Part shown: one piece after another, positions 35,388 to 46,260 of the stretch
How positions within the stretch are numbered: the first letter of the stretch is position 1
Layout of the letters: every line of letters starts with the position of its first letter
Position numbers and translations under genes: made by a program
Notes under the pieces: generated by a model
What the model was told of the DNA's origin: nothing
Seen by the model: only the letters and a program-made list of their open reading frames with translations
The model's database searches: none
Source of the DNA: Alphaproteobacteria bacterium
Lineage (GTDB): Bacteria; Pseudomonadota; Alphaproteobacteria; UBA6615
Direction of reading: 5' to 3'
NCBI GenBank assembly: GCA_021774575.1
Contig: JAJFIX010000037.1
Location: 124,001-188,000, forward strand
DNA: 64,000 nucleotides

Positions 35388-36512
35388 ATGAACAATGGGG
35401 AAAATCGGCGAACGGAACCCGTCTTGGCGCTCGGCCTGATGTCGGGAACGTCGATGGATGGAATCGACGCCTGCCTGCTGGAAACCGATGGCGAATATAT
35501 CGTGCGAGCGGGCGAAAACCTGTTCAAGCCCTATGACGAGGGGGTTCGCGACCGCCTCAGGGCCGCTATTTCAGGCAAGTTTTCCGAAGATGAAAAGGCA
35601 GCTCTAGCGCGCAACCTGACCCTTGCCCACGCAAACTTGGTTGACGACCTACGCATTAAAGCGGGTTTGGCGCGGGGTGAAATTACCGTCGTCGGTTTTC
35701 ACGGCCACACGATTGAACACCAGCCAGCTCTCGGTCGACCGGGACAGGGGCGCTCGATACAGCTAGGTGACGGCGCCCTGCTCGCAGCGCAAACGGGTGT
35801 CGATGTTATTTGCGACTTCAGAAGTCGCGATGTTGTGGCGGGTGGGGAAGGGGCGCCGTTGGTGCCTATCTACCATGGAGCTCTTGCAGACGGTTTGGCA
35901 AAACCGGTTTGTGTTTTGAATATTGGCGGTGTTGCCAATGTCACCTGGATTGGCCTCGATCGATCGCTGGTTGCCTTCGATACCGGTCCAGGCAATGCGC
36001 TCATTGATGATTTTGTCAGGCGTCAAACTGGCAAAAACTACGACGATAATGGCCGGTTGGCGGCCGCTGGAGAGGTCGATGAGGTCCTTGTCGCCGCCAC
36101 GCTCGCGGGCCCATATTTCGCCCGGCCGGCGCCCAAATCCCTCGACCGAAATGATTTTTCCGACCTTTTGGCCGCGGTCGATCATTTGTCACCCGCCGAT
36201 GGTGCCGCGACCCTTACTGCCGTGACCGCGCGGGCGGTCGCAAAAGCAGCTGAGTTGCTGCCGTTGCCGCCGGAAATCTGGATTGTCACCGGTGGCGGGC
36301 GCCGAAATGAAACGATTATGACACAGCTCGCAGACCAGCTTGCAGCGCCGGTAAAGCCAACGGAGGCCCTTGGCTGGGACGGTGATATGCTTGAAGCCCA
36401 GGCTTTTGCCTATCTCGCTGTGCGATCTTTACGCAACCTGGCGATTACCTTTCCCGGCACGACCGGTGTTCCCCGGCCATTGACCGGGGCAACGTTTCAC
36501 CCGGCGGGGTGA
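35388..36512 (+). CDS. anmK: Anhydro-N-acetylmuramic acid kinase
   Basis: Converts 1,6-anhydroMurNAc from peptidoglycan turnover into MurNAc-6-phosphate in the cytosol. 374 residues. The N-terminal GLMSGTSMDGIDACLLE is diagnostic, with GFHGHTIEHQP, DFRSRDVVAGGEGAPLVP, VLNIGGVANVT, DTGPGNALIDDFV and VTGGGRRN giving the sugar-kinase-fold loops. No amgK, murU or nagZ neighbours are visible. Its 3' end overlaps the convergent hydrolase by 16 bases. Confidence 0.95.
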   Translation: MNNGENRRTEPVLALGLMSGTSMDGIDACLLETDGEYIVRAGENLFKPYDEGVRDRLRAAISGKFSEDEKAALARNLTLAHANLVDDLRIKAGLARGEITVVGFHGHTIEHQPALGRPGQGRSIQLGDGALLAAQTGVDVICDFRSRDVVAGGEGAPLVPIYHGALADGLAKPVCVLNIGGVANVTWIGLDRSLVAFDTGPGNALIDDFVRRQTGKNYDDNGRLAAAGEVDEVLVAATLAGPYFARPAPKSLDRNDFSDLLAAVDHLSPADGAATLTAVTARAVAKAAELLPLPPEIWIVTGGGRRNETIMTQLADQLAAPVKPTEALGWDGDMLEAQAFAYLAVRSLRNLAITFPGTTGVPRPLTGATFHPAG

Positions 36513-37138
36513 TCGTCGAGATAATTGGTCATGTTTTCTTCGATGACATCGAGCCGGTCTTGATAAAAATGATCGATACCTGGCTGTAGGCGGTAATCGA
36601 TCTTGATGCCTTTTTGCTTGGCAAGTTTCTCGACGAGAGTGCCGACCGAGTCGTGGGGGACGACCGTGTCCTGGTCCCCATGCAAGATCAGGCCCGAGGC
36701 CGGGCAGGGGGCGAGGAAACTGAAATCATAGAGATTTGCCGGTGGCGAAATCGAAATGAATCCCGAAATTTCGGGACGGCGCATCAAGAGCTGCATGCCG
36801 ATCCAAGCGCCAAAGGAAAAGCCTGTGACCCAACACGCTTTCGCGTTTGGATTGGTTGCCTGCAACCAGTCAAGGGCTGCTGCTGCATCCGATAACTCAC
36901 CTTCGCCTCGATCATAGGTCCCAAGGGATCGTCCGACCCCGCGAAAATTAAAGCGCAGGACCCCATAGTCGCGCTTGGTAAATGTCTGGTAGGCGGTATA
37001 GACCACCTTGTTGTTCATCGTGCCACCGTGCTGGGGGTGCGGGTGCAGAATGAGGGCAATCGGCGCGTCGGGAACTTTTCCCGGTTGGTAGCGGCCCTGC
37101 AGACGCCCTTCCGGGCCGTTAATAATGACTTCAGGCAT
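36497..37138 (-). CDS. Alpha/beta hydrolase (COG2945-like)
   Basis: 213-residue cytosolic hydrolase of unknown substrate. ALILHPHPQHGGTMNNKVV is the oxyanion-hole region of this subfamily. The nucleophile elbow is VTGFSFGAWIG (GxSxG), the acid is in ILHGDQDTVVP and the His in PGIDHFYQD, so the triad is complete. The frame is open upstream to 37216, but AAGGA sits about 8 bases before the ATG at 37138 and the longer version would run through the IscR-type operator. Homologues start with MPEVIINGPEGRLQ-like sequence. Confidence 0.86.
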   Translation of the reverse strand: MPEVIINGPEGRLQGRYQPGKVPDAPIALILHPHPQHGGTMNNKVVYTAYQTFTKRDYGVLRFNFRGVGRSLGTYDRGEGELSDAAAALDWLQATNPNAKACWVTGFSFGAWIGMQLLMRRPEISGFISISPPANLYDFSFLAPCPASGLILHGDQDTVVPHDSVGTLVEKLAKQKGIKIDYRLQPGIDHFYQDRLDVIEENMTNYLDDHPAG

Positions 37139-37217
37139 CGTGATTTCCTTAACGTCGGGATTAATCCGAGTGCTTAAGTCAGGCTTTTTTTTCAAAGCCT
37201 GCAACATTCTTGGCAAA

Positions 37218-37244
37218 ATACTTGACTAATGCACTCAGGTTTAT
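37218..37244 (+). promoter_or_regulatory. IscR-type operator upstream of cysE-iscR-suf
   Basis: ATACTTGACTAATGCACTCAGGTTTAT spans these bases: ATAC-TTGACT, a 5-base centre, then ACTCAGG. It resembles the type 1 IscR site, whose consensus has TTGACT and A(G/C)TC half-sites arranged this way. It lies 116 bases before cysE, the first gene of the operon that encodes IscR. Its TTGACT is also the best -35 box, so bound IscR would block RNA polymerase. The match is by eye to the remembered enterobacterial consensus; alphaproteobacterial IscR may prefer a variant. Confidence 0.6.
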
Positions 37245-37250
37245 TTAAGT
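37222..37250 (+). promoter_or_regulatory. Predicted sigma-70-like promoter of the cysE-iscR-suf operon
   Basis: -35 TTGACT (37222-37227), 17-base spacer and -10 TTTAAG (37245-37250, four of six matches). The -35 is embedded in the IscR-type operator, the arrangement known for autorepressed iscR promoters. The leader would be about 100 bases. Confidence 0.45.
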
Positions 37251-37359
37251 ACAAGGGACGAAGATGTTCTTTTAATTGCTCCCAGGAATGCAGGTTTTTG
37301 CGGATTTCCGTTTCAAGTGGGGGTGTATAGCACAACAAGGACCGTGATTTTCAAGCGCC

Positions 37360-38124
37360 ATGATTATTAAACGAATGATCGCAGATATAGATGCCTATTT
37401 GGATCGCGACCCGGCGGCGCGGTCGCGGCTAGAGGTATTGTTAACCCATTCCGGCCTGCATGCGGTCATTTGGCATCGATTGGCCCATTGGTTTTGGCGG
37501 CGCGGCCTGCGCATTCTTGGCCGCACCGTTGCGCTGTTTGGTCGCTGGCTGACCGGTATCGAGATACACCCTGAAGCGCAAATTGGTGCCCGGTTGGTTA
37601 TTGACCACGGTATGGGGGTGGTTATCGGCCAAACCGCTGAAATTGGTGACGACGTGACGCTTTATCACGGGGTCACTCTCGGCGGTATCGCGCCGTCAGT
37701 TGATAGCGACCAGCAACGCAATACCAAACGCCACCCGACGATCATGTCCGGGGCCATTGTTGGATCCGGCGCGCAAGTTTTGGGCCCGATTACCGTCGGC
37801 ATTAATGCCCGGGTCGGTGCCAATGCGGTGGTGGTAAAGGATGTGCAAGAGGGATGTACGGTGGTCGGTATCCCGGCCAAACCGGTACTGTCGGCGGCCT
37901 GCAAGGCGGACGAGTTTTCTGCCTATGGGACGCCAACCGATGATTTGCCCGATCCTGTGTCGCGTGCCATAGAAGGACTGCTCGGGGAAATAGGGGCCTT
38001 GCGGGCCCGACTTGAAGAGCTTGAGCGCGAAAATCAGGACTTGAGTGGACGCGGCATCGGCCTAGAAGACAGGGAATCGGCGCAAAACAATGTCGACCGA
38101 CCTGCCCCGAAAAGCACCGATTAG
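37360..38124 (+). CDS. cysE: Serine O-acetyltransferase
   Basis: Makes O-acetylserine, the precursor of cysteine. 254 residues. The N-terminal helices are of the short (EpsC-like) type. The left-handed beta-helix shows IEIHPEAQIGARLVIDHGMGVVIGQTAEIGDDVTLYHGVTLGG-type hexapeptide repeats with the catalytic His and Asp, then KRHPTI and VGIPAKPV. After the catalytic domain there is a coiled-coil-like Glu-rich tail (LGEIGALRARLEELEREN). It is the first gene behind the IscR-type operator, so cysteine synthesis is tied to Fe-S demand. Confidence 0.94.
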   Translation: MIIKRMIADIDAYLDRDPAARSRLEVLLTHSGLHAVIWHRLAHWFWRRGLRILGRTVALFGRWLTGIEIHPEAQIGARLVIDHGMGVVIGQTAEIGDDVTLYHGVTLGGIAPSVDSDQQRNTKRHPTIMSGAIVGSGAQVLGPITVGINARVGANAVVVKDVQEGCTVVGIPAKPVLSAACKADEFSAYGTPTDDLPDPVSRAIEGLLGEIGALRARLEELERENQDLSGRGIGLEDRESAQNNVDRPAPKSTD

Positions 38125-38162
38125 TAGGCCGTCATCAGGCTAATGCAGAGGAAGATAAAGCC

Positions 38163-38633
38163 ATGAAATTAAGTGCGCGGGGGCGTTACGCTGTGATGGC
38201 AATGGCCGATATCGGTGTTTATGGCGATCCAGGTGAGCCGGTGTCGTTGGCCGATATTTCGGCCAGACAGGAGATCTCCTTGTCTTACCTGGAGCAGCTT
38301 TTTGTTAAATTGCGACGCGCCGGCTTAGTCAAAAGTGTGCGCGGGCCCGGTGGCGGCTACACCCTCGGCCACGATGCGGCGGCGACAAGAATTGCCGATA
38401 TTATTGCTGCGGTTGATGAGAAAATTTCCGCGACACGATGCATGCCGGGGAAAAACTCGAGCTGTGTTTCCCAGTCGAGCCGCTGCCTAACTCATGATTT
38501 GTGGGAAGAACTTGGTAATCAGATCAAGCTTTATTTGAGCTCCGTGACCTTGGCCGATGTCTGCGAAGGCCGGGTCCTTGGGACCAGTGGCCTGGTTGGT
38601 CATCGGGATATGTCCCTGATGGCCGTCAACTAG
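38163..38633 (+). CDS. iscR: Fe-S cluster-responsive regulator IscR (Rrf2 family)
   Basis: 156-residue winged-helix repressor. MKLSARGRYAVMAMADIG is the Rrf2 start and SLADISARQEISLSYLEQLFVKLRRAGLVKSVRGPGGGYTL the DNA-binding wing. The cluster-binding region keeps three cysteines and His in CMPGKNSSC, then SSRC, then LTHDLW, as in IscR, so it should sense [2Fe-2S] occupancy. The ribosome site GAGGAAG is well placed. It is 38 bases after cysE and heads the SUF genes; it presumably represses its own operon through the site at 37218. Confidence 0.95.
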   Translation: MKLSARGRYAVMAMADIGVYGDPGEPVSLADISARQEISLSYLEQLFVKLRRAGLVKSVRGPGGGYTLGHDAAATRIADIIAAVDEKISATRCMPGKNSSCVSQSSRCLTHDLWEELGNQIKLYLSSVTLADVCEGRVLGTSGLVGHRDMSLMAVN

Positions 38634-38658: not shown

Positions 38659-39771
38659 ATGACAGAACGCATCTATCTAGATTGGAATGCCAGCGCGCCA
38701 ATGCGCGGGCAAGTGATTGACGCGGTCGCATTGGCGATGGCCTCTCACGGCAATCCCTCGTCGGTGCATGGCGACGGGCGGCGCGCCCGTGCGGCTGTCG
38801 AAGACGCGCGCGAAGCTGTTGCGGCCTTGGTCGGGGCAAATCCTGCCAACGTAATTTTCACCAGCGGTGGGACCGAGGCAAATAATCAAGCGCTCGCTGG
38901 GCACCCAAATCACACTGTGCTCGCCAGCGGAATTGAACATGTCTCCATTCTCGAAGTGGCTGCAAATACGCCGCGCATTGCCTGCCTGCCCAATGGGGAA
39001 ATTGATCTCGACCAGTTCTCCGACCTGCTTGGGCGGGGCACCGGGGGCCGGCTCGTCGCCGTGATGCTGGCAAATAATGAGACCGGGGTTATTCAACCGG
39101 TCACCGAAATTGCCGCGCTGGCCCGTGATGCTGGAGCCTTATTTCATTGCGATACCGTGCAAGCTGCGGGTCGGATGGCGGTCGATATTGGGCTTATCGG
39201 TGCAGACAGTATCAGCCTCTCAGCTCATAAAATTGGTGGTCCGAAAGGGGTTGGGGCGCTGATCTTTAATGGCACCGCACCGCAACCGCTGCTCAGGGGC
39301 GGTGGCCAGGAGCGGAGCCGACGAGCCGGAACAGAAAATGTCGCCGGGATTGTCGGGTTTGGCGTGGCCGCACGCCTTGCCGCCAACTGGCGGGACGAAA
39401 TGAACTCCGTTGAGGTACTGCGCGATGAGCTGGAGCAGCGCCTGGCGGCGGCGGCCCCGGAAGTGGTTATTTATGGGCGAGACGCCCGAAGATTGGCCAA
39501 TACCAGTCTTGTCGGTTTGCCGGACATCGATGCAGGAACTCAATTGATGGCCCTGGATCTTGCTGGTATTTCGGTTAGCGCCGGATCCGCTTGCTCGAGT
39601 GGCAAGGTCGCATCCAGCCATGTGCTTGCCGCCATGGGAGTAGGGTCGGCAGCAGCCAATAATGCGATCCGGGTTTCCTTGGGACCGGAGACCTTGGCCG
39701 AAGACGTCAACCGATTTGTGGCCAGCTGGGCCCGGCTGCGCGATGGCGCCCGGGCTCCCGCGGCGGCGTAA
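38659..39771 (+). CDS. Cysteine desulfurase, NifS/IscS-like (first of three)
   Basis: 370-residue PLP enzyme removing sulfur from cysteine. YLDWNASAPM and HGNPSSVHGDGR are the group I N-terminus. [22 protein letters not shown] and SLSAHKIGGPKG (PLP Lys) follow, then the mobile loop SVSAGSACSSGKVASSHVL with the catalytic Cys. It is somewhat diverged from the next gene (for instance LDWNASAP against LDYQATTP), suggesting an old duplication. It lies 25 bases after iscR. Confidence 0.9.
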   Translation: MTERIYLDWNASAPMRGQVIDAVALAMASHGNPSSVHGDGRRARAAVEDAREAVAALVGANPANVIFTSGGTEANNQALAGHPNHTVLASGIEHVSILEVAANTPRIACLPNGEIDLDQFSDLLGRGTGGRLVAVMLANNETGVIQPVTEIAALARDAGALFHCDTVQAAGRMAVDIGLIGADSISLSAHKIGGPKGVGALIFNGTAPQPLLRGGGQERSRRAGTENVAGIVGFGVAARLAANWRDEMNSVEVLRDELEQRLAAAAPEVVIYGRDARRLANTSLVGLPDIDAGTQLMALDLAGISVSAGSACSSGKVASSHVLAAMGVGSAAANNAIRVSLGPETLAEDVNRFVASWARLRDGARAPAAA

Positions 39772-39786: not shown

Positions 39787-40983
39787 ATGACTGAACAGCA
39801 AGGGCGGAGCGTCTATCTCGACTATCAGGCAACCACACCGGTCGATCCAAAGGTGCTCGCCAAGATGCTGCCTTTTTTCACCGGCAATTTTGCCAATCCC
39901 CACTCGGTGCAACACGGTCCGGGACGCCGGGCGGCGGACGCCGTTGAGACGGCGCGGGGTCAGGTCGCGGCGGCCATTGGCGCGCAAGATCGCGAGATCA
40001 TTTTTACCTCTGGTGCGACCGAGGCCAATAATCTGGCCATCAAGGGGGCGCTCAGATTTGCTCTTGAGCATGGCGAGCGTGACGCGATTGTCACCTTCGC
40101 CACCGAACATAAATGTGTGCTTGAGGCGACTGGCGATATGGAGGCCGAAGGCGCGCGCATGACCGTGCTGCCGGTCGGCGCCGACGGCCTCATCGATCTT
40201 GCTGGATTTGAAACGGCGCTGAGTGACGAAACGGCACTGGTTTCGGTGATGGCGGTCAATAATGAGACCGGTGTCATCCAGCCGTTGGCCGAAATAGGTG
40301 CGCTGTGTCGGGCGCGGGGCATCCTGTTTCACACCGATGCGGCGCAAGCAGCGGGCAAAATCGCCATCGATGTGGACGCAATGCAGATCGACTTATTGAG
40401 CTGTACCGCCCATAAAATGTATGGCCCGAAAGGCATTGGCGCACTTTATGTGCGCCGTAGACCGAGGGCCCGCCTGGCGCCGTTGTTTAGCGGCGGCGGG
40501 CAAGAGCGGGGTTTGCGCTCGGGCACATTGCCGGTGCCCCTCTGCGTTGGATTTGGCGCGGCGTGTGAGGTGTCGATTGAGGAAATGGAAGTTGAAGCAG
40601 AGCGGCTTGCCGAAATGAGAGCGCGATTGCTCGATGGTCTGACGGGGCGTCTTGGCGAGTTGAAAATAACCGGCACAATGGCCCATCGTTTTGCCGGCAA
40701 CCTTAACCTAGTTATTCCCGGTGTCGATGGCGGCGATCTTTTGGCCCGGTTGGAGGATGTCGCAATTTCCACCGGTTCGGCCTGCACTTCGGCCAGTCAG
40801 GCCCCATCATATGTTCTGACATCGATGGGGCTTTCTCCGACCCAAGCTAGCCAGTCGTTCCGGCTGTCGGTCGGTCGATTTACCACCCATGAAGATATTG
40901 ACTATGCCGTGTCGCGCCTATCTCAGGCAGCAGAAGATTTGCGCGCCGCTCCGCCCCTTCGGGCGGCTGGCGTTGGCGATTAA
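39787..40983 (+). CDS. iscS: Cysteine desulfurase IscS-like (second of three)
   Basis: 398 residues, group I desulfurase. [22 protein letters not shown] and [13 protein letters not shown] match IscS closely. [28 protein letters not shown] and [21 protein letters not shown] (PLP Lys) follow. The catalytic Cys is in [24 protein letters not shown]-type ribosome site upstream. IscS enzymes also feed tRNA thiolation, and mnmA lies 8 kb downstream. Start is 15 bases after the first desulfurase. Confidence 0.93.
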
Positions 40984-40997
40984 GGAAGATCCAGGAA

Positions 40998-42464
40998 ATG
41001 GCGAAAACGGAAACACTCGATCCACTCGATCAAGCGACCGACCAATATAAATATGGTTTTGTCACCGACATCGATGTCGAGTTGGCCCCCAAGGGGCTGA
41101 ACGAAGATATCATTAAGTTTATTTCGGCCAAAAAGAACGAGCCGGAGTGGCTGCTAGAGTGGCGGATGAAAGCATATCGTCACTGGTTGACTATGGATGA
41201 ACCGAATTGGCAAAAGCCCGCTTATGACGCGATAAACTATCAAGACAGCTATTACTACGCCGCGCCGAAAATGGCGGAGAAGCCAAAATCTCTCGATGAG
41301 GTTGATCCTATTCTGTTGGAAACCTATGAAAAGCTGGGCATTCCCTTACGCGAGCAAGAGGTGCTTGCAGGGGTTGAGGGTGCGGTCGGCGTTGCGGTTG
41401 ACGCGGTGTTTGACAGCGTCTCGGTTGCCACGACGTTCAAGGCAACATTGGAAAAACAGGGCGTTATTTTCTGCCCTATCTCAGAAGCCGTGGCCGAGCA
41501 TCCCGAACTGGTACGCAAATATCTGGGCTCGGTCGTTCCCTATACGGATAATTTTTTCGCCACACTCAATAGCGCGGTCTTTACCGATGGCTCCTTCGTT
41601 TATATCCCCAAGGGCGTGCGCTGCCCGATGGAGCTTTCGACATATTTCCGTATCAATCAGGAAAATACCGGCCAATTTGAGCGCACCCTGATCATCGCCG
41701 ATGAAGGTTCATATGTGAGCTACCTCGAAGGCTGTACCGCCCCCCAGCGCGACGAGCATCAACTTCATGCGGCGGTGGTTGAGCTGGTTTGCCTGGGCGA
41801 CGCGGAGGTTAAATATTCGACCGTGCAGAATTGGTATCCGGGCGACGCCGAGGGCAAGGGTGGTATCTATAATTTTGTTACCAAACGTGGGGCATGCCGA
41901 GGTGACTATTCGAAAATCTCCTGGACGCAGGTTGAAACGGGATCGGCGGTAACGTGGAAATACCCGAGCTGTATCTTGCAAGGTGATCATTCGGTTGGCG
42001 AATTTTACTCCGTCGCCATCACCAATAATTTGCAGCAGGCCGATACCGGCACGAAAATGATCCATTTGGGTCGAAACACAAAGAGCCGGATAATTTCGAA
42101 GGGGATTTCCGCCGGACGCGCCGATCAAACATATCGAGGATTGGTGCGGGTTGGTCCCAAAGCCTCGGGCGCGCGCAATTATACCCAATGCGATAGCCTG
42201 TTGATCGGCGATGAATGCGGCGCTCACACAATTCCCTATATCGAAACGGCAAATGATACGGCCCTTGTTGAGCACGAGGCGACGACCTCGAAAATCAGCG
42301 AAGATCAGCTTTTTTATTGTCGTCAGCGTGGCCTATCCGATGAAGAAGCCGTGGCGCTGATCGTCAATGGGTTTTGCCGCGAGGTTATGCAGGAACTCCC
42401 GATGGAATTTGCCGTAGAAGCGCAAAAACTCGTCGGCATCAGTTTAGAAGGAAGTGTTGGCTAA
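40998..42464 (+). CDS. sufB: Fe-S cluster assembly protein SufB
   Basis: Core scaffold subunit of SufBC2D, on which clusters are built from persulfide sulfur. 488 residues. [44 protein letters not shown] is the standard start. The beta-helix and C-terminal core include [47 protein letters not shown] and [20 protein letters not shown], as in all SufB. Its stop overlaps the sufC start by one base (TAATG). Confidence 0.97.
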
Positions 42465-43216
42465 TGGCTTTGTTAGACGTCAAGGATCTGCATGCGCGGA
42501 TTGCCGAAACGGATATTTTAAATGGGTTGAGTCTGTCGATCGGCCCCGGTGAGGTGCATGCGATCATGGGGCCCAACGGGTCGGGAAAAAGCACTCTTTC
42601 CTTCACCTTGGCCGGTCGCGACGGTTATGAAGTGACCAGCGGTTCAGCCGAACTTGACGGCACTGACCTGATCCAAATGAGTGTTGAGGAGCGGGCTCGG
42701 GCCGGGCTGTTTCTCGCCCTGCAATATCCCGTTGAAATTCCCGGCGTCACCGGCACATCATTTTTACGTACCGCCGTTAATGCCCATCGCAAACATCGGG
42801 GCGAAGACCCGATGGACGCCATGGATTTTGTGAAATTTATTCGGGCCAAGGCCACCGCGCTGGATATTAGCGACGACATGTTGAAGCGTCCGCTGAATGT
42901 CGGGTTTTCAGGCGGTGAGAAAAAACGATTTGAAGTTTTACAAATGACGGCTCTTGAGCCGCGCCTGGCGATCCTCGATGAAACCGATTCCGGACTGGAT
43001 ATCGATGCGATGAAAGTCGTTGCCGAGGGGGTCAATAATCTCCGCTCGCCGGAACGCGGGATGCTGGTAATCACCCATTATCAGCGCCTGCTTGATCATA
43101 TCGCGCCTGATTATGTTCATGTCATGGTTGCCGGTCGCATTGTCGAAACCGGTGGTGGCGAGCTCGTTGGCGAGCTCGAAAAGAACGGCTACGCCCGTTT
43201 CTTGGCGGCGGCATGA
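42464..43216 (+). CDS. sufC: Fe-S cluster assembly ATPase SufC
   Basis: ABC-type ATPase subunit of SufBC2D. 250 residues from the ATG at 42464. Walker A is GPNGSGKSTLSF, the signature FSGGEKKRFEVLQM and Walker B LAILDETDSGLDIDAMKVV. The switch His is in ITHYQRLLDHI. The open frame extends upstream into sufB, but the AAGGAAG ribosome site (8-14 bases before) and the overlapping stop favour this start. Confidence 0.97.
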   Translation: MALLDVKDLHARIAETDILNGLSLSIGPGEVHAIMGPNGSGKSTLSFTLAGRDGYEVTSGSAELDGTDLIQMSVEERARAGLFLALQYPVEIPGVTGTSFLRTAVNAHRKHRGEDPMDAMDFVKFIRAKATALDISDDMLKRPLNVGFSGGEKKRFEVLQMTALEPRLAILDETDSGLDIDAMKVVAEGVNNLRSPERGMLVITHYQRLLDHIAPDYVHVMVAGRIVETGGGELVGELEKNGYARFLAAA

Positions 43217-43223
43217 GGGTGCA

Positions 43224-44552
43224 ATGACGGCAAACGAAATATTTGGCGCGACGTTTAGTCCGCGCGGATCGTCGACGGTAGACGGTCCGCCTTGGCTAGC
43301 GAATTTGCGCCAATGTGCCCGGGAGCAGTTCGAAGCGACCGGACTGCCCCGGCGTAAAGTCGAAAATTGGCGCTACACGGATTTGACTGATCTTGGGGCG
43401 CAGGCCTGGGAGCCTGCCCAAGCCACATCGGCTCCGTCTGAACTGTCTGCAGAAATAGCTGGCACCGGTCCCCGGCTGACACTTTTTAACGGGCGTTTCG
43501 TGCCGCAATTATCCAATTTGGATGGTTTGAGTGACGGCGCGCGGTTGATGGGACTGGCGGACTGTTTGGCCGCCGAGCCCACGCTCATTGATCGGCATTT
43601 GGGCAAGCTCGCTGTGGGCGAGGCGATGCCGCTAGCGGCCTTGAATACGGCTTGGATTGACGATGGGGCGGTGTTGATCATTGCGCCGGGTGCAAAAATA
43701 GACCAGCGCCTGCATATTGTGTCGCTGGGTGATGGCGATCGTGCGGCGTTTCACCCTCGGCTATTAGTCGTTGCCGGCGATGGTTGTTCGGTAACTTTGG
43801 TTGAGCACCATTTGCCGGTTCAAGATCATGCCTATTTCTCTAATTCGGTAGCCGAGATATTTGTCGGTTCGGGGGCTCGGCTAGAGCATATTAAAATACA
43901 GGAGGAAGCCATGTCGGCGACCCATTTGGCCGCCGCCCATATTCGCCTCGATGATGAGGGGAGCTACGAAGGGTTCATCTTGCAAAAAGGCGCGCGTCTG
44001 GCCCGTCACGAGATTGCGGCCGAACTCGGCGCGGCGGCTGATTGTCGGGTCGCGGCGGCCTATCTCGGCAATGGCGATCAGCATTTGGATACGACGATCC
44101 GGATTGAGCATGTGCGTCCCGGCGCGACGTCACGCCAACATGTCAGGGGCGTCTTGACCGATCAAGCGAGGGGTGTTTTTCAAGGCAAAACTACCGTGCA
44201 TAAGGGCGCCCAGCAGACCGACGGGCAGCAAATGAGCCGCGCCTTGCTGCTCTCGCCCGAGGCACGTTTTAGTGCCAAGCCCGAGCTTGAAATATATGCC
44301 GACGATGTCAAGTGCGGCCACGGCGCGACAACCGGCGCCTTGTCTGAAGATGCGATGTTCTATTTAGAGGCGCGCGGTATCGATCGCGAGACAGCGCGGG
44401 CGCTCTTGATCGGCGCCTTTGTCGAAGAAGTCATCGCGGAAATTTCCGATGCGCCCTCGCGCACAGCCTTGCGGGCGCTGGTCGGAAAATGGTTGTTCGA
44501 TTTAACCGGCCATGACTGGTCAATCGACCTCGATGATGGAGACCTCGCGTGA
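43224..44552 (+). CDS. sufD: Fe-S cluster assembly protein SufD
   Basis: SufB paralogue that forms the SufBC2D scaffold and helps recruit iron. 442 residues. RRKVENWRYTDLTDL is the SufD N-terminal helix. The beta-helix core ends with SRQHVRGVLTDQARGVFQGKTTVHKGAQQTDGQQMSRALL-type sequence and YADDVKCGHGATTGALSEDAMFYLEARGI, which contains the conserved His. The ATG at 43224 is chosen because upstream frame sequence overlaps sufC. The stop overlaps the sufS GTG (GTGA). Confidence 0.95.
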   Translation: MTANEIFGATFSPRGSSTVDGPPWLANLRQCAREQFEATGLPRRKVENWRYTDLTDLGAQAWEPAQATSAPSELSAEIAGTGPRLTLFNGRFVPQLSNLDGLSDGARLMGLADCLAAEPTLIDRHLGKLAVGEAMPLAALNTAWIDDGAVLIIAPGAKIDQRLHIVSLGDGDRAAFHPRLLVVAGDGCSVTLVEHHLPVQDHAYFSNSVAEIFVGSGARLEHIKIQEEAMSATHLAAAHIRLDDEGSYEGFILQKGARLARHEIAAELGAAADCRVAAAYLGNGDQHLDTTIRIEHVRPGATSRQHVRGVLTDQARGVFQGKTTVHKGAQQTDGQQMSRALLLSPEARFSAKPELEIYADDVKCGHGATTGALSEDAMFYLEARGIDRETARALLIGAFVEEVIAEISDAPSRTALRALVGKWLFDLTGHDWSIDLDDGDLA

Positions 44553-45796
44553 CAGTCATGACAGCAACCAACGAACCTAAATTTGACGTCGACGCAGTGC
44601 GCAAGGATTTTCCGATCCTGTCGCGCCAAGTGCATGGCAAAAAGTTGGTTTTTCTCGATAGCGCCGCATCGGCGCAGAAACCCCGCCAGGTGATCGATAC
44701 CCTGCGCTCGGTCTATGAGGATGAATATGCCAATGTTCATCGCGGGGCCTATTTTCTGTCCGAGCAGGCGACCTCGCGCTATGAAGGCGCGCGCGAAAAA
44801 GTGCGGGAATTCATTGGTGCCGCCCATGCCCATGAGATCATTTTCACCCGCAACGCAACCGAGAGCATCAACCTTGTCGCAAGATCCTATGGAAAGGAAT
44901 TTCTGAAGGCGGGCGATGAGGTCATCATTTCAGAACTAGAACATCATTCCAATATTGTTCCCTGGCAAATGCTGCGCGACGAGATCGGCATCGTGCTCAA
45001 AACCACCCCGATCAGCGATGCGGGCGAGTTTCTGCTCGACGACTTTAAGGCCGTATTGTCGGACCGGACCAAGTTGGTCGCCCTTGCCCATATGTCGAAT
45101 GTGCTCGGAACAATCCTGCCAGTGCGCGAAATTATCGACCTCTCCCACGCGGCCGGGGCTAAAGTATTGCTTGATGGCTGCCAGTCGGTGGTCCACCAGC
45201 CGGTTGATATGGTCGGCCTTGGCTGCGATTTTTATGCATTTTCCGGGCATAAACTTTATGGGCCTTCGGGGATCGGCGTGCTCTATGGGCGCGAGGAATT
45301 GCTTGATGCGATGCCGCCATTTCTTGGGGGCGGCGATATGATTTCCAGCGTCACCTTGGAACAATCCAAATGGGCCAAGCTGCCGCACAAATTTGAAGCA
45401 GGTACACCGGCGATAGCGCCGACCATTGGGCTGGGCGCCGCACTCGATTATGTGAATGCCCTGGGGTTGGAAAATATCGGTGCTCATGAGGCCGAGCTGC
45501 TGGCCTATGCCAACCAGCAACTGGCGCAAATTCCCGGTCTGACCCTGATTGGTACGGCACCGGGCAAAGGCAGCGTGATTTCGTTCACCCTCGATTGCGC
45601 CCATCCCCACGATATCGCAACCATTGTCGATAGGTCGGGAGTAGCAGTGCGGGCCGGGCATCATTGCGCCCAACCGCTTATGCAGCGTTTCGGCATTCCG
45701 GCTGCGACAAGGGCTTCTTTCGGGCTTTACAATCGGCGCGATGAGGTCGATGCATTGGTTGACGCCCTGGGGCAGGTGCGGGAGATTTTTGGCTAA
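44549..45796 (+). CDS. sufS: SUF cysteine desulfurase SufS (third of three)
   Basis: Group II desulfurase of the SUF pathway. 415 residues. VRKDFPILSRQVHGKKLVFLDSAASAQKP is the start. FTRNATESINLVA, SELEHHSNIVPWQ, SGHKLYGPSGIGVLYG (PLP Lys) and RAGHHCAQPLMQRFG (catalytic Cys) are intact. The GTG start at 44549 has GGAG 6 bases upstream; an ATG 9 bases further is possible. It directly precedes sufU, its expected sulfur acceptor. Confidence 0.96.
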   Translation: MTVMTATNEPKFDVDAVRKDFPILSRQVHGKKLVFLDSAASAQKPRQVIDTLRSVYEDEYANVHRGAYFLSEQATSRYEGAREKVREFIGAAHAHEIIFTRNATESINLVARSYGKEFLKAGDEVIISELEHHSNIVPWQMLRDEIGIVLKTTPISDAGEFLLDDFKAVLSDRTKLVALAHMSNVLGTILPVREIIDLSHAAGAKVLLDGCQSVVHQPVDMVGLGCDFYAFSGHKLYGPSGIGVLYGREELLDAMPPFLGGGDMISSVTLEQSKWAKLPHKFEAGTPAIAPTIGLGAALDYVNALGLENIGAHEAELLAYANQQLAQIPGLTLIGTAPGKGSVISFTLDCAHPHDIATIVDRSGVAVRAGHHCAQPLMQRFGIPAATRASFGLYNRRDEVDALVDALGQVREIFG

Positions 45797-46260
45797 TGAG
45801 CAATGAGTTACGTGAGCTGTATCAAGAGGTTATTCTCGATCACGGGCGAACCCCGCGGAATTTCCGTGATCTCGAAAAGGCGACCGCGCAGGCGTTTGGT
45901 AACAATCCCCTCTGCGGCGATCAACTGACGGTCTACTTGGCGCTGGGCGCAGACCGCAAGGTGGAAGATGTCACATTCAAGGGCAATGGGTGTGCAATCT
46001 CGGTTGCCTCGGCCTCGCTCATGACCGAAGCCTTGAAGGGCAAGAGCGAGGGAGATGTTCGCGCTCTTTACAAAGCGTTTCACGCGATGTGCACTGGCGA
46101 GGAAACAGGACCTGCACCCGAGGGTGAGGATGACGCGCTTGAAAAGCTGCGGGTTCTTTCCGGTGTGGCCGAATATCCGACCCGGGTTAAATGCGCGACC
46201 CTCGCCTGGCATACAATGGCGGCGGCGCTCGATGGCGAACAGGAAGTGACGACCGAATGA
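45796..46260 (+). CDS. sufU: SufU-type sulfurtransferase/scaffold
   Basis: 154 residues. LYQEVILDHGRTPRNF is the SufU start. The Zn/sulfur ligands are all present: NPLCGDQLTVY (Cys and Asp), GNGCAISVASASLM (Cys) and RVKCATLAWHT (Cys). The insertion between the second and third cysteines (EETGPAPEGEDDALEKLRVL) is the SufU feature absent from IscU. It likely takes the persulfide from SufS and passes it to SufB. One-base overlap with sufS (TAATG). Confidence 0.93.
   Translation: MSNELRELYQEVILDHGRTPRNFRDLEKATAQAFGNNPLCGDQLTVYLALGADRKVEDVTFKGNGCAISVASASLMTEALKGKSEGDVRALYKAFHAMCTGEETGPAPEGEDDALEKLRVLSGVAEYPTRVKCATLAWHTMAAALDGEQEVTTE

Follow-up and report, generated by a model that had tools for sequence, protein, structure and literature searches.

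The window (the whole 64,000-nucleotide stretch of DNA that was analyzed) carries on its forward strand an Fe-S cluster assembly operon with intergenic gaps of no more than 38 bp from cysE through sufU. The first gene, cysE (37360..38124), encodes a serine O-acetyltransferase (TIGR01172, 221.3 bits; cut-off 210.65). It is followed by the gene for an IscR-type regulator of the Rrf2 family (38163..38633; above the TIGR00738 cut-off), by genes for a NifS/IscS-like cysteine desulfurase (38659..39771; best match TIGR03402, below cut-off) and a cysteine desulfurase of the IscS subfamily (39787..40983; best match PRK14012, below cut-off), and by sufB (40998..42464; above cut-off), sufC (42464..43216; TIGR01978, 349.3 bits), sufD (43218..44552; TIGR01981, 268.5 bits), sufS (44549..45796; TIGR01979, 590.1 bits), and a gene for a SufU-like scaffold or sulfur transfer protein (45796..46260; TIGR01994, 148 bits); the starts of sufC and sufD are approximate. 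A divergent alpha/beta hydrolase-like gene (36497..37138, reverse strand) lies upstream, and between it and cysE are two IscR-like palindromes, box 1 (37218..37242) and box 2 (37162..37186), both given here as read on the forward strand.

In the organism's own genome (assembly 97 per cent complete), the cysE product is the sole match above the TIGR01172 cut-off, and it appears to be the only convincing serine acetyltransferase. Because cysE is also the first gene of the operon, the proposal of the initial annotation that cysteine supply shares the control of cluster assembly is well supported, with the role of IscR in that control deduced from the sequence. TIGR02010 is the best equivalog of the Rrf2 protein, at a score below its cut-off (176.6 vs 207.55 bits), and we therefore label the regulator IscR-type on the basis of other features. 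Its cluster ligands, C93-C101-C108-H111, are invariant among ten relatives, and the same C3H pattern is found in 135 of 138 IscR proteins. Its residues S41, Y42, E44, Q45, and R60 are the equivalents of the DNA-recognition residues S40, Y41, E43, Q44, and R59 of Escherichia coli (PMC11475020); the E44-Q45 pair, too, has its equivalent in 135 of the 138 proteins.

A longer upstream reading of the hydrolase gene had been considered unlikely, with the operator as proof. The conclusion stands and the proof does not: the longer reading starts at a TTG at 37216, outside box 1, and since the two do not overlap, box 1 has no bearing on it. The short start is right because MPEVI (37138) is the one start that relatives conserve, with unrelated extensions upstream of it. 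Across the class, 136 of 141 loci have this gene upstream of the operon in divergent orientation. On the other side of the intergenic region, the start of cysE (37344-37370) seems to be a 16-bp tandem duplicate (GTGATTTTCAAGCGCC / ATGATTATTAAACGAA). The copy beside a Shine-Dalgarno-like AAGG (37337-37340) carries an 8-codon open reading frame with a GTG start (MIFKRHDY) that extends across the ATG of cysE at 37360; only one start is present in relatives.

Box 1 (ATACTTGACTAATGCACTCAGGTTT, 25 bp) agrees with the E. coli type 1 IscR consensus ATASYYGACTRWWWYAGTCRRSTAT (PMC3899308) at 22 of 25 positions, with 3 mismatches, and contains exactly, at 37218-37239, the pattern ATACTTGACT-N5-ACTCAGG that the initial annotation had compared to a type 1 site. 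When the whole 3.5 Mb assembly was searched with the consensus at up to 3 mismatches, box 1 was the only place matched (on both strands, as expected of a palindrome), and a reversed-pattern control likewise gave one match per strand. The scan with an alphaproteobacterial matrix that had been suggested as a check gives 27.4 bits for box 1 (matrix derived from orthologous promoters of relatives, with the window left out of training), against a maximum of 18.4 bits in 7 Mb of Markov-random sequence. Given the unique genome match and this difference in scores, the box stands far above chance. Its half-sites have TT and CT at positions 5-6, and the TT, in the half-site ATACTTGACT, is present in 139 of 141 loci. 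Another feature of type 1 sites is a position over the promoter of an iscR-containing Fe-S assembly operon, and box 1 is so placed. The resemblance noted earlier is thus borne out by the consensus match, by the footprint in relatives, by the register that it has in common with a footprinted site of Pseudomonas aeruginosa, by the conserved ligand and recognition residues of the regulator, and by the lack of a rival type 1 match elsewhere in the genome, and sequence comparison confirms box 1 as a genuine predicted type 1 IscR operator, ordinary in kind and informative for its placement before cysE. IscR very probably binds it. Elsewhere in the same genome, 84 loose core matches were found vs 41 in controls, and none of the subset rescored with the matrix exceeded 10.7 bits; we therefore claim no further type 1 IscR target.

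Box 1 is conserved upstream of the operon in 91 of 97 scorable related loci, mostly from named Rhodospirillales and other Alphaproteobacteria. All scorable relatives of the family have ATACTTGAC(C/T), then the mirrored right half, and then, after two bases, TATAT. In loci that lack cysE, box 1 directly precedes iscR, and it therefore tracks the 5' end of the operon and no particular gene. We also scanned 385 genomes of the class, by sequence alone, for a pattern made of the box and the −10 element, and found matches in 89 of them, compared to 4 matches for the pattern read backward. Among 86 class-wide matches that were inspected, 82 precede either cysE-iscR (60) or iscR (22); one precedes a cysteine desulfurase gene and three precede something else. 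A looser pattern, CTTGAYNNNNNNRSTMRG, was uninformative in the class-wide scan and the box-plus-minus-10 pattern was used in its place.

As the initial annotation had stated, a −35-like hexamer (TTGACT, 37222..37227, forward strand) is located inside box 1. Its TTGA(C/T) is invariant in relatives, which have TATAT about 17 bp downstream as the −10 element, starting two bases past box 1. Aligned to these sequences, the window reads TTAAGT (or TTTAAG, with a 16-bp spacer) at 37244..37250, from which we predict a transcription start near 37257. Nearly all relatives have a far stronger −10 in TATAT, and as a consequence the promoter of the window may depend more on an activator. A generic sigma-70 scan of the region did not list the cysE-iscR-suf promoter; in that scan, promoter-like and terminator-like matches were no commoner than in shuffled sequence, and no Rfam match was found in 37100-38200.

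In its general arrangement, the promoter is like that of E. coli iscR, in which a 25-bp palindrome overlaps the −35 of an autoregulated Fe-S operon (PMC3899308). It differs in that cysE comes first, the operon combines isc and suf genes, and the right half of box 1 has ACTC where E. coli has AGTC. A close known counterpart of the box itself is the DNase I-footprinted site B of Pseudomonas aeruginosa, ATAGTTGACCTAATTACTCGGATAA (PMC6599224), which is in the same 25-bp register, has nearly the sequence of the relatives and a similar position on its promoter, and matches the E. coli type 1 consensus at 76 per cent. Site B also carries the ACTCGG right half, covering the base at which the window departs from E. 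coli.

Box 2 (TAATCCGAGTGCTTAAGTCAGGCTT) was missed in the initial annotation and came up as an unexpected secondary match in the matrix scan of the window. It is a weaker IscR-like palindrome, with its dyad 56 bp upstream of that of box 1. When 92 loci were searched at any offset, the only cluster of box 2 matches was at −55 to −57. These loci were enlarged with class-wide loci, picked without reference to box 2, and made non-redundant by upstream similarity, giving a set of 141. In this set, the untrained E. coli consensus (at least 16 of 25 positions) matches 22 loci at exactly −56, vs a median of 0 per offset, and a trained box 2 matrix matches 61 loci at −55 to −57, where 200 palindromes scrambled at constant composition match a mean of 1.6 and a maximum of 16. 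Above-average scores also occur at offsets of ±13 and +28, because the half-sites overlap themselves and the TATAT of the −10 resembles the end of a box.

Loci without box 2 at −56 often have it at −65 to −68 or −76 to −80, and a few have it near −98. These shifted offsets were outside the training of the matrix; subtracting multiples of 10.5 from −56 gives 27 of the 30 matches to within 2 bp (p = 5.5e-8), and a period of about 10.5 bp fits best. Only 83 of the 141 loci have a detected box 2 at such phased positions, and its match to the IscR consensus is weaker than that of box 1. No description of a phased second box was found in the literature searched, and as far as that literature goes, a helix-phased box 2 appears to be undescribed.

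The half-sites of the two boxes suggest which protein may bind them. Besides the nearly universal TT in the left half of box 1, the right half has CC in 104 of the 141 loci, and box 2 mostly has CC on both sides; the majority of loci are thus TT/CC at box 1 and CC/CC at box 2, and the window is TT/CT and CC/CT. Read 5' to 3', the left half of box 1 is ATACTTGACC, with a TTGAC that is forced by the −35, the right half, free of this constraint, has the consensus ATGCCCGACT, and each half of box 2 has the consensus ATACCCGACT. The unconstrained half of box 1 and the two halves of box 2 have the consensus ATnCCCGACT in common, and the simplest reading is therefore that the same protein acts at both boxes. 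On this evidence, we consider it probable, with some reserve, that IscR binds box 2. In E. coli, CC in both halves is said to favor type 2 binding (suf, ydiU, hya; PMC8561392); box 2 is CC/CC in most loci, and CC/CT in the window itself. However, known type 2 sites are found at or close to the −35 and have it embedded, whereas box 2 lies farther upstream, by about 50 bp, and is type 1-like in other respects: compared by eye to the type 2 consensus AWARCCCYTSnGTTTGMnGKKKTKWA, it more closely resembles type 1 at positions other than the CC ones.

Taken as a whole, an autoregulated cysE-iscR-iscS-sufBCDSU promoter, repressed from box 1 and with box 2 as a probable second IscR site, is a likely model. 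With Fe-S clusters plentiful, [2Fe-2S]-IscR on box 1 would exclude RNA polymerase, and its occupancy of the box would lower both cluster assembly and, through cysE, the cysteine supply for it. With clusters scarce, IscR would lose its cluster and leave box 1, and the operon would be expressed. IscR at box 2 may then assist the polymerase; its cooperation in repression is less likely.

We propose activation from box 2 because of its CC/CC half-sites and because of its position. The predicted center of the box is about −83, or −93.5 or −104.5 in relatives with a shifted box, relative to the predicted start at 37257. These predicted distances would agree with the spacings of class I activators such as CRP, which are centered at helical-turn intervals upstream of −60 and depend on the C-terminal domain of the RNA polymerase alpha subunit. 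CC half-sites are reported to allow binding of both apo- and holo-IscR, and TT to be tolerated only by holo-IscR, with E43 of IscR discriminating between TT and CC (PMC8561392). That IscR itself activates from box 2 is offered tentatively, as a possibility short of probable. A full dual switch, in which holo-IscR represses at the TT/CC box 1 and, after cluster loss, IscR on the CC/CC box 2 activates, appears somewhat doubtful. A related case is the P2 promoter of Rhodobacter sphaeroides with its Iron-Rhodo-box, where IscR controls isc-suf, repression by holo-IscR and some activation by apo-IscR have been reported, and the divergent putative hydrolase gene RSP_0444 also adjoins the promoter (PMC4618611, PMC6956336). 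Its IscR, however, has a single cysteine and a 19-bp box, in contrast to the C3H ligand set found here.

It is possible, though somewhat unlikely, that IscR acts on box 1 only and that a different regulator, either a further protein of the Rrf2 family or an unnamed activator, occupies box 2. The genome encodes three other Rrf2 proteins that could bind box 2, and CC-to-CT changes at the two boxes show no significant covariation (p = 0.52), which would also suit two separate proteins. The isc-suf operon of Caulobacter crescentus bears on this question: like the operon here it is alphaproteobacterial, it is repressed by IscR there, and an element between −110 and −49 is needed for extra induction at low iron, which persists without IscR and without dependence of the operon on Fur or OxyR (PMC11475020). 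At least in Caulobacter, the upstream activator is therefore not IscR. The Caulobacter element fits an activating element at the place of box 2, and the operon differs from that in the window in beginning with iscR, in having no cysE, and in the independence of its upstream activation from IscR. However, the half-site consensus of box 2 equals that of the half of box 1 free of the −35, and both boxes are 25-bp palindromes with the same ends, as expected if IscR binds both.

With IscR at both boxes, the main functional alternative to activation is cooperative repression, in which box 2 is an auxiliary site and IscR dimers bound at both boxes act together or form a DNA loop, which would tighten repression. 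Helical phasing would suit protein-protein contact across the DNA, and the iscR promoter of P. aeruginosa, which also has a second upstream site, needs both adjacent type 1 sites, A and B, for full repression (PMC6599224). Yet in P. aeruginosa the two sites follow each other directly, at a distance of 25 bp, whereas the boxes here are 56 bp apart and shift by whole helical turns between lineages, and a 56-bp loop would be costly. The predicted centers of box 2 coincide with class I activator positions, and CC/CC half-sites predict binding of apo-IscR too, when repression would be unwanted. We therefore regard an auxiliary repressor site as unlikely.

A role for box 2 at the divergent hydrolase gene, and not at cysE-iscR-suf, is very unlikely: the box lies between box 1 and the start of this nearly always divergent gene, but its distance to that start varies (sd 20.6 bp), whereas its distance to box 1 is either fixed (sd 0.64 bp, within the group at −55 to −57 and so by selection) or shifted by whole turns. 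It is least probable, to the point of being barely tenable, that the conserved sequence is merely a strong sigma-70 promoter and no regulator site, because, although the most invariant bases of box 1 are the TTGAC of the −35 and TATAT follows at promoter spacing, the mirrored right half (A/G)(G/C)TC(G/A)G is kept in the spacer, a stretch whose sequence does not matter to a promoter, the outer ATA...AT ends are likewise kept, the box as a whole agrees in register with a known 25-bp IscR palindrome, and box 2, without a promoter function, has the same half-sites.

Under the preferred reading, with IscR repressing from box 1 and probably also bound at box 2, one Fe-S-sensing repressor would set sulfur supply and cluster assembly together, and cluster assembly uses up cysteine. 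The distribution of box 1 suggests that this joint control of cysE and cluster assembly extends across much of the class. With box 2, an otherwise standard negative-feedback promoter would become a device with two sites, serving either activation or cooperative repression, and the box makes a candidate for the upstream activating element reported at the Caulobacter isc-suf promoter. If the dual switch were true, cysE-iscR-suf would be driven above the merely derepressed level, and a push-pull coupling of cysteine synthesis to cluster demand would be widespread in alphaproteobacteria.

Several further repeats are found around the boxes. In the window, an inverted repeat (CAGGCTTTTTTTTCAAAGCCTG, 37180-37201) is located between the boxes and runs into the end of box 2. 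At the same place, inverted repeats of unrelated sequence occur in some relatives, for example GGAATCGG...CCGATTCC in locus L012. In a few loci, such as L084 and L058, an extra IscR-like box (in L084, ATACCCGACTAAATTACTCGGAATT) is situated 28-30 bp downstream of box 1, near the predicted start.
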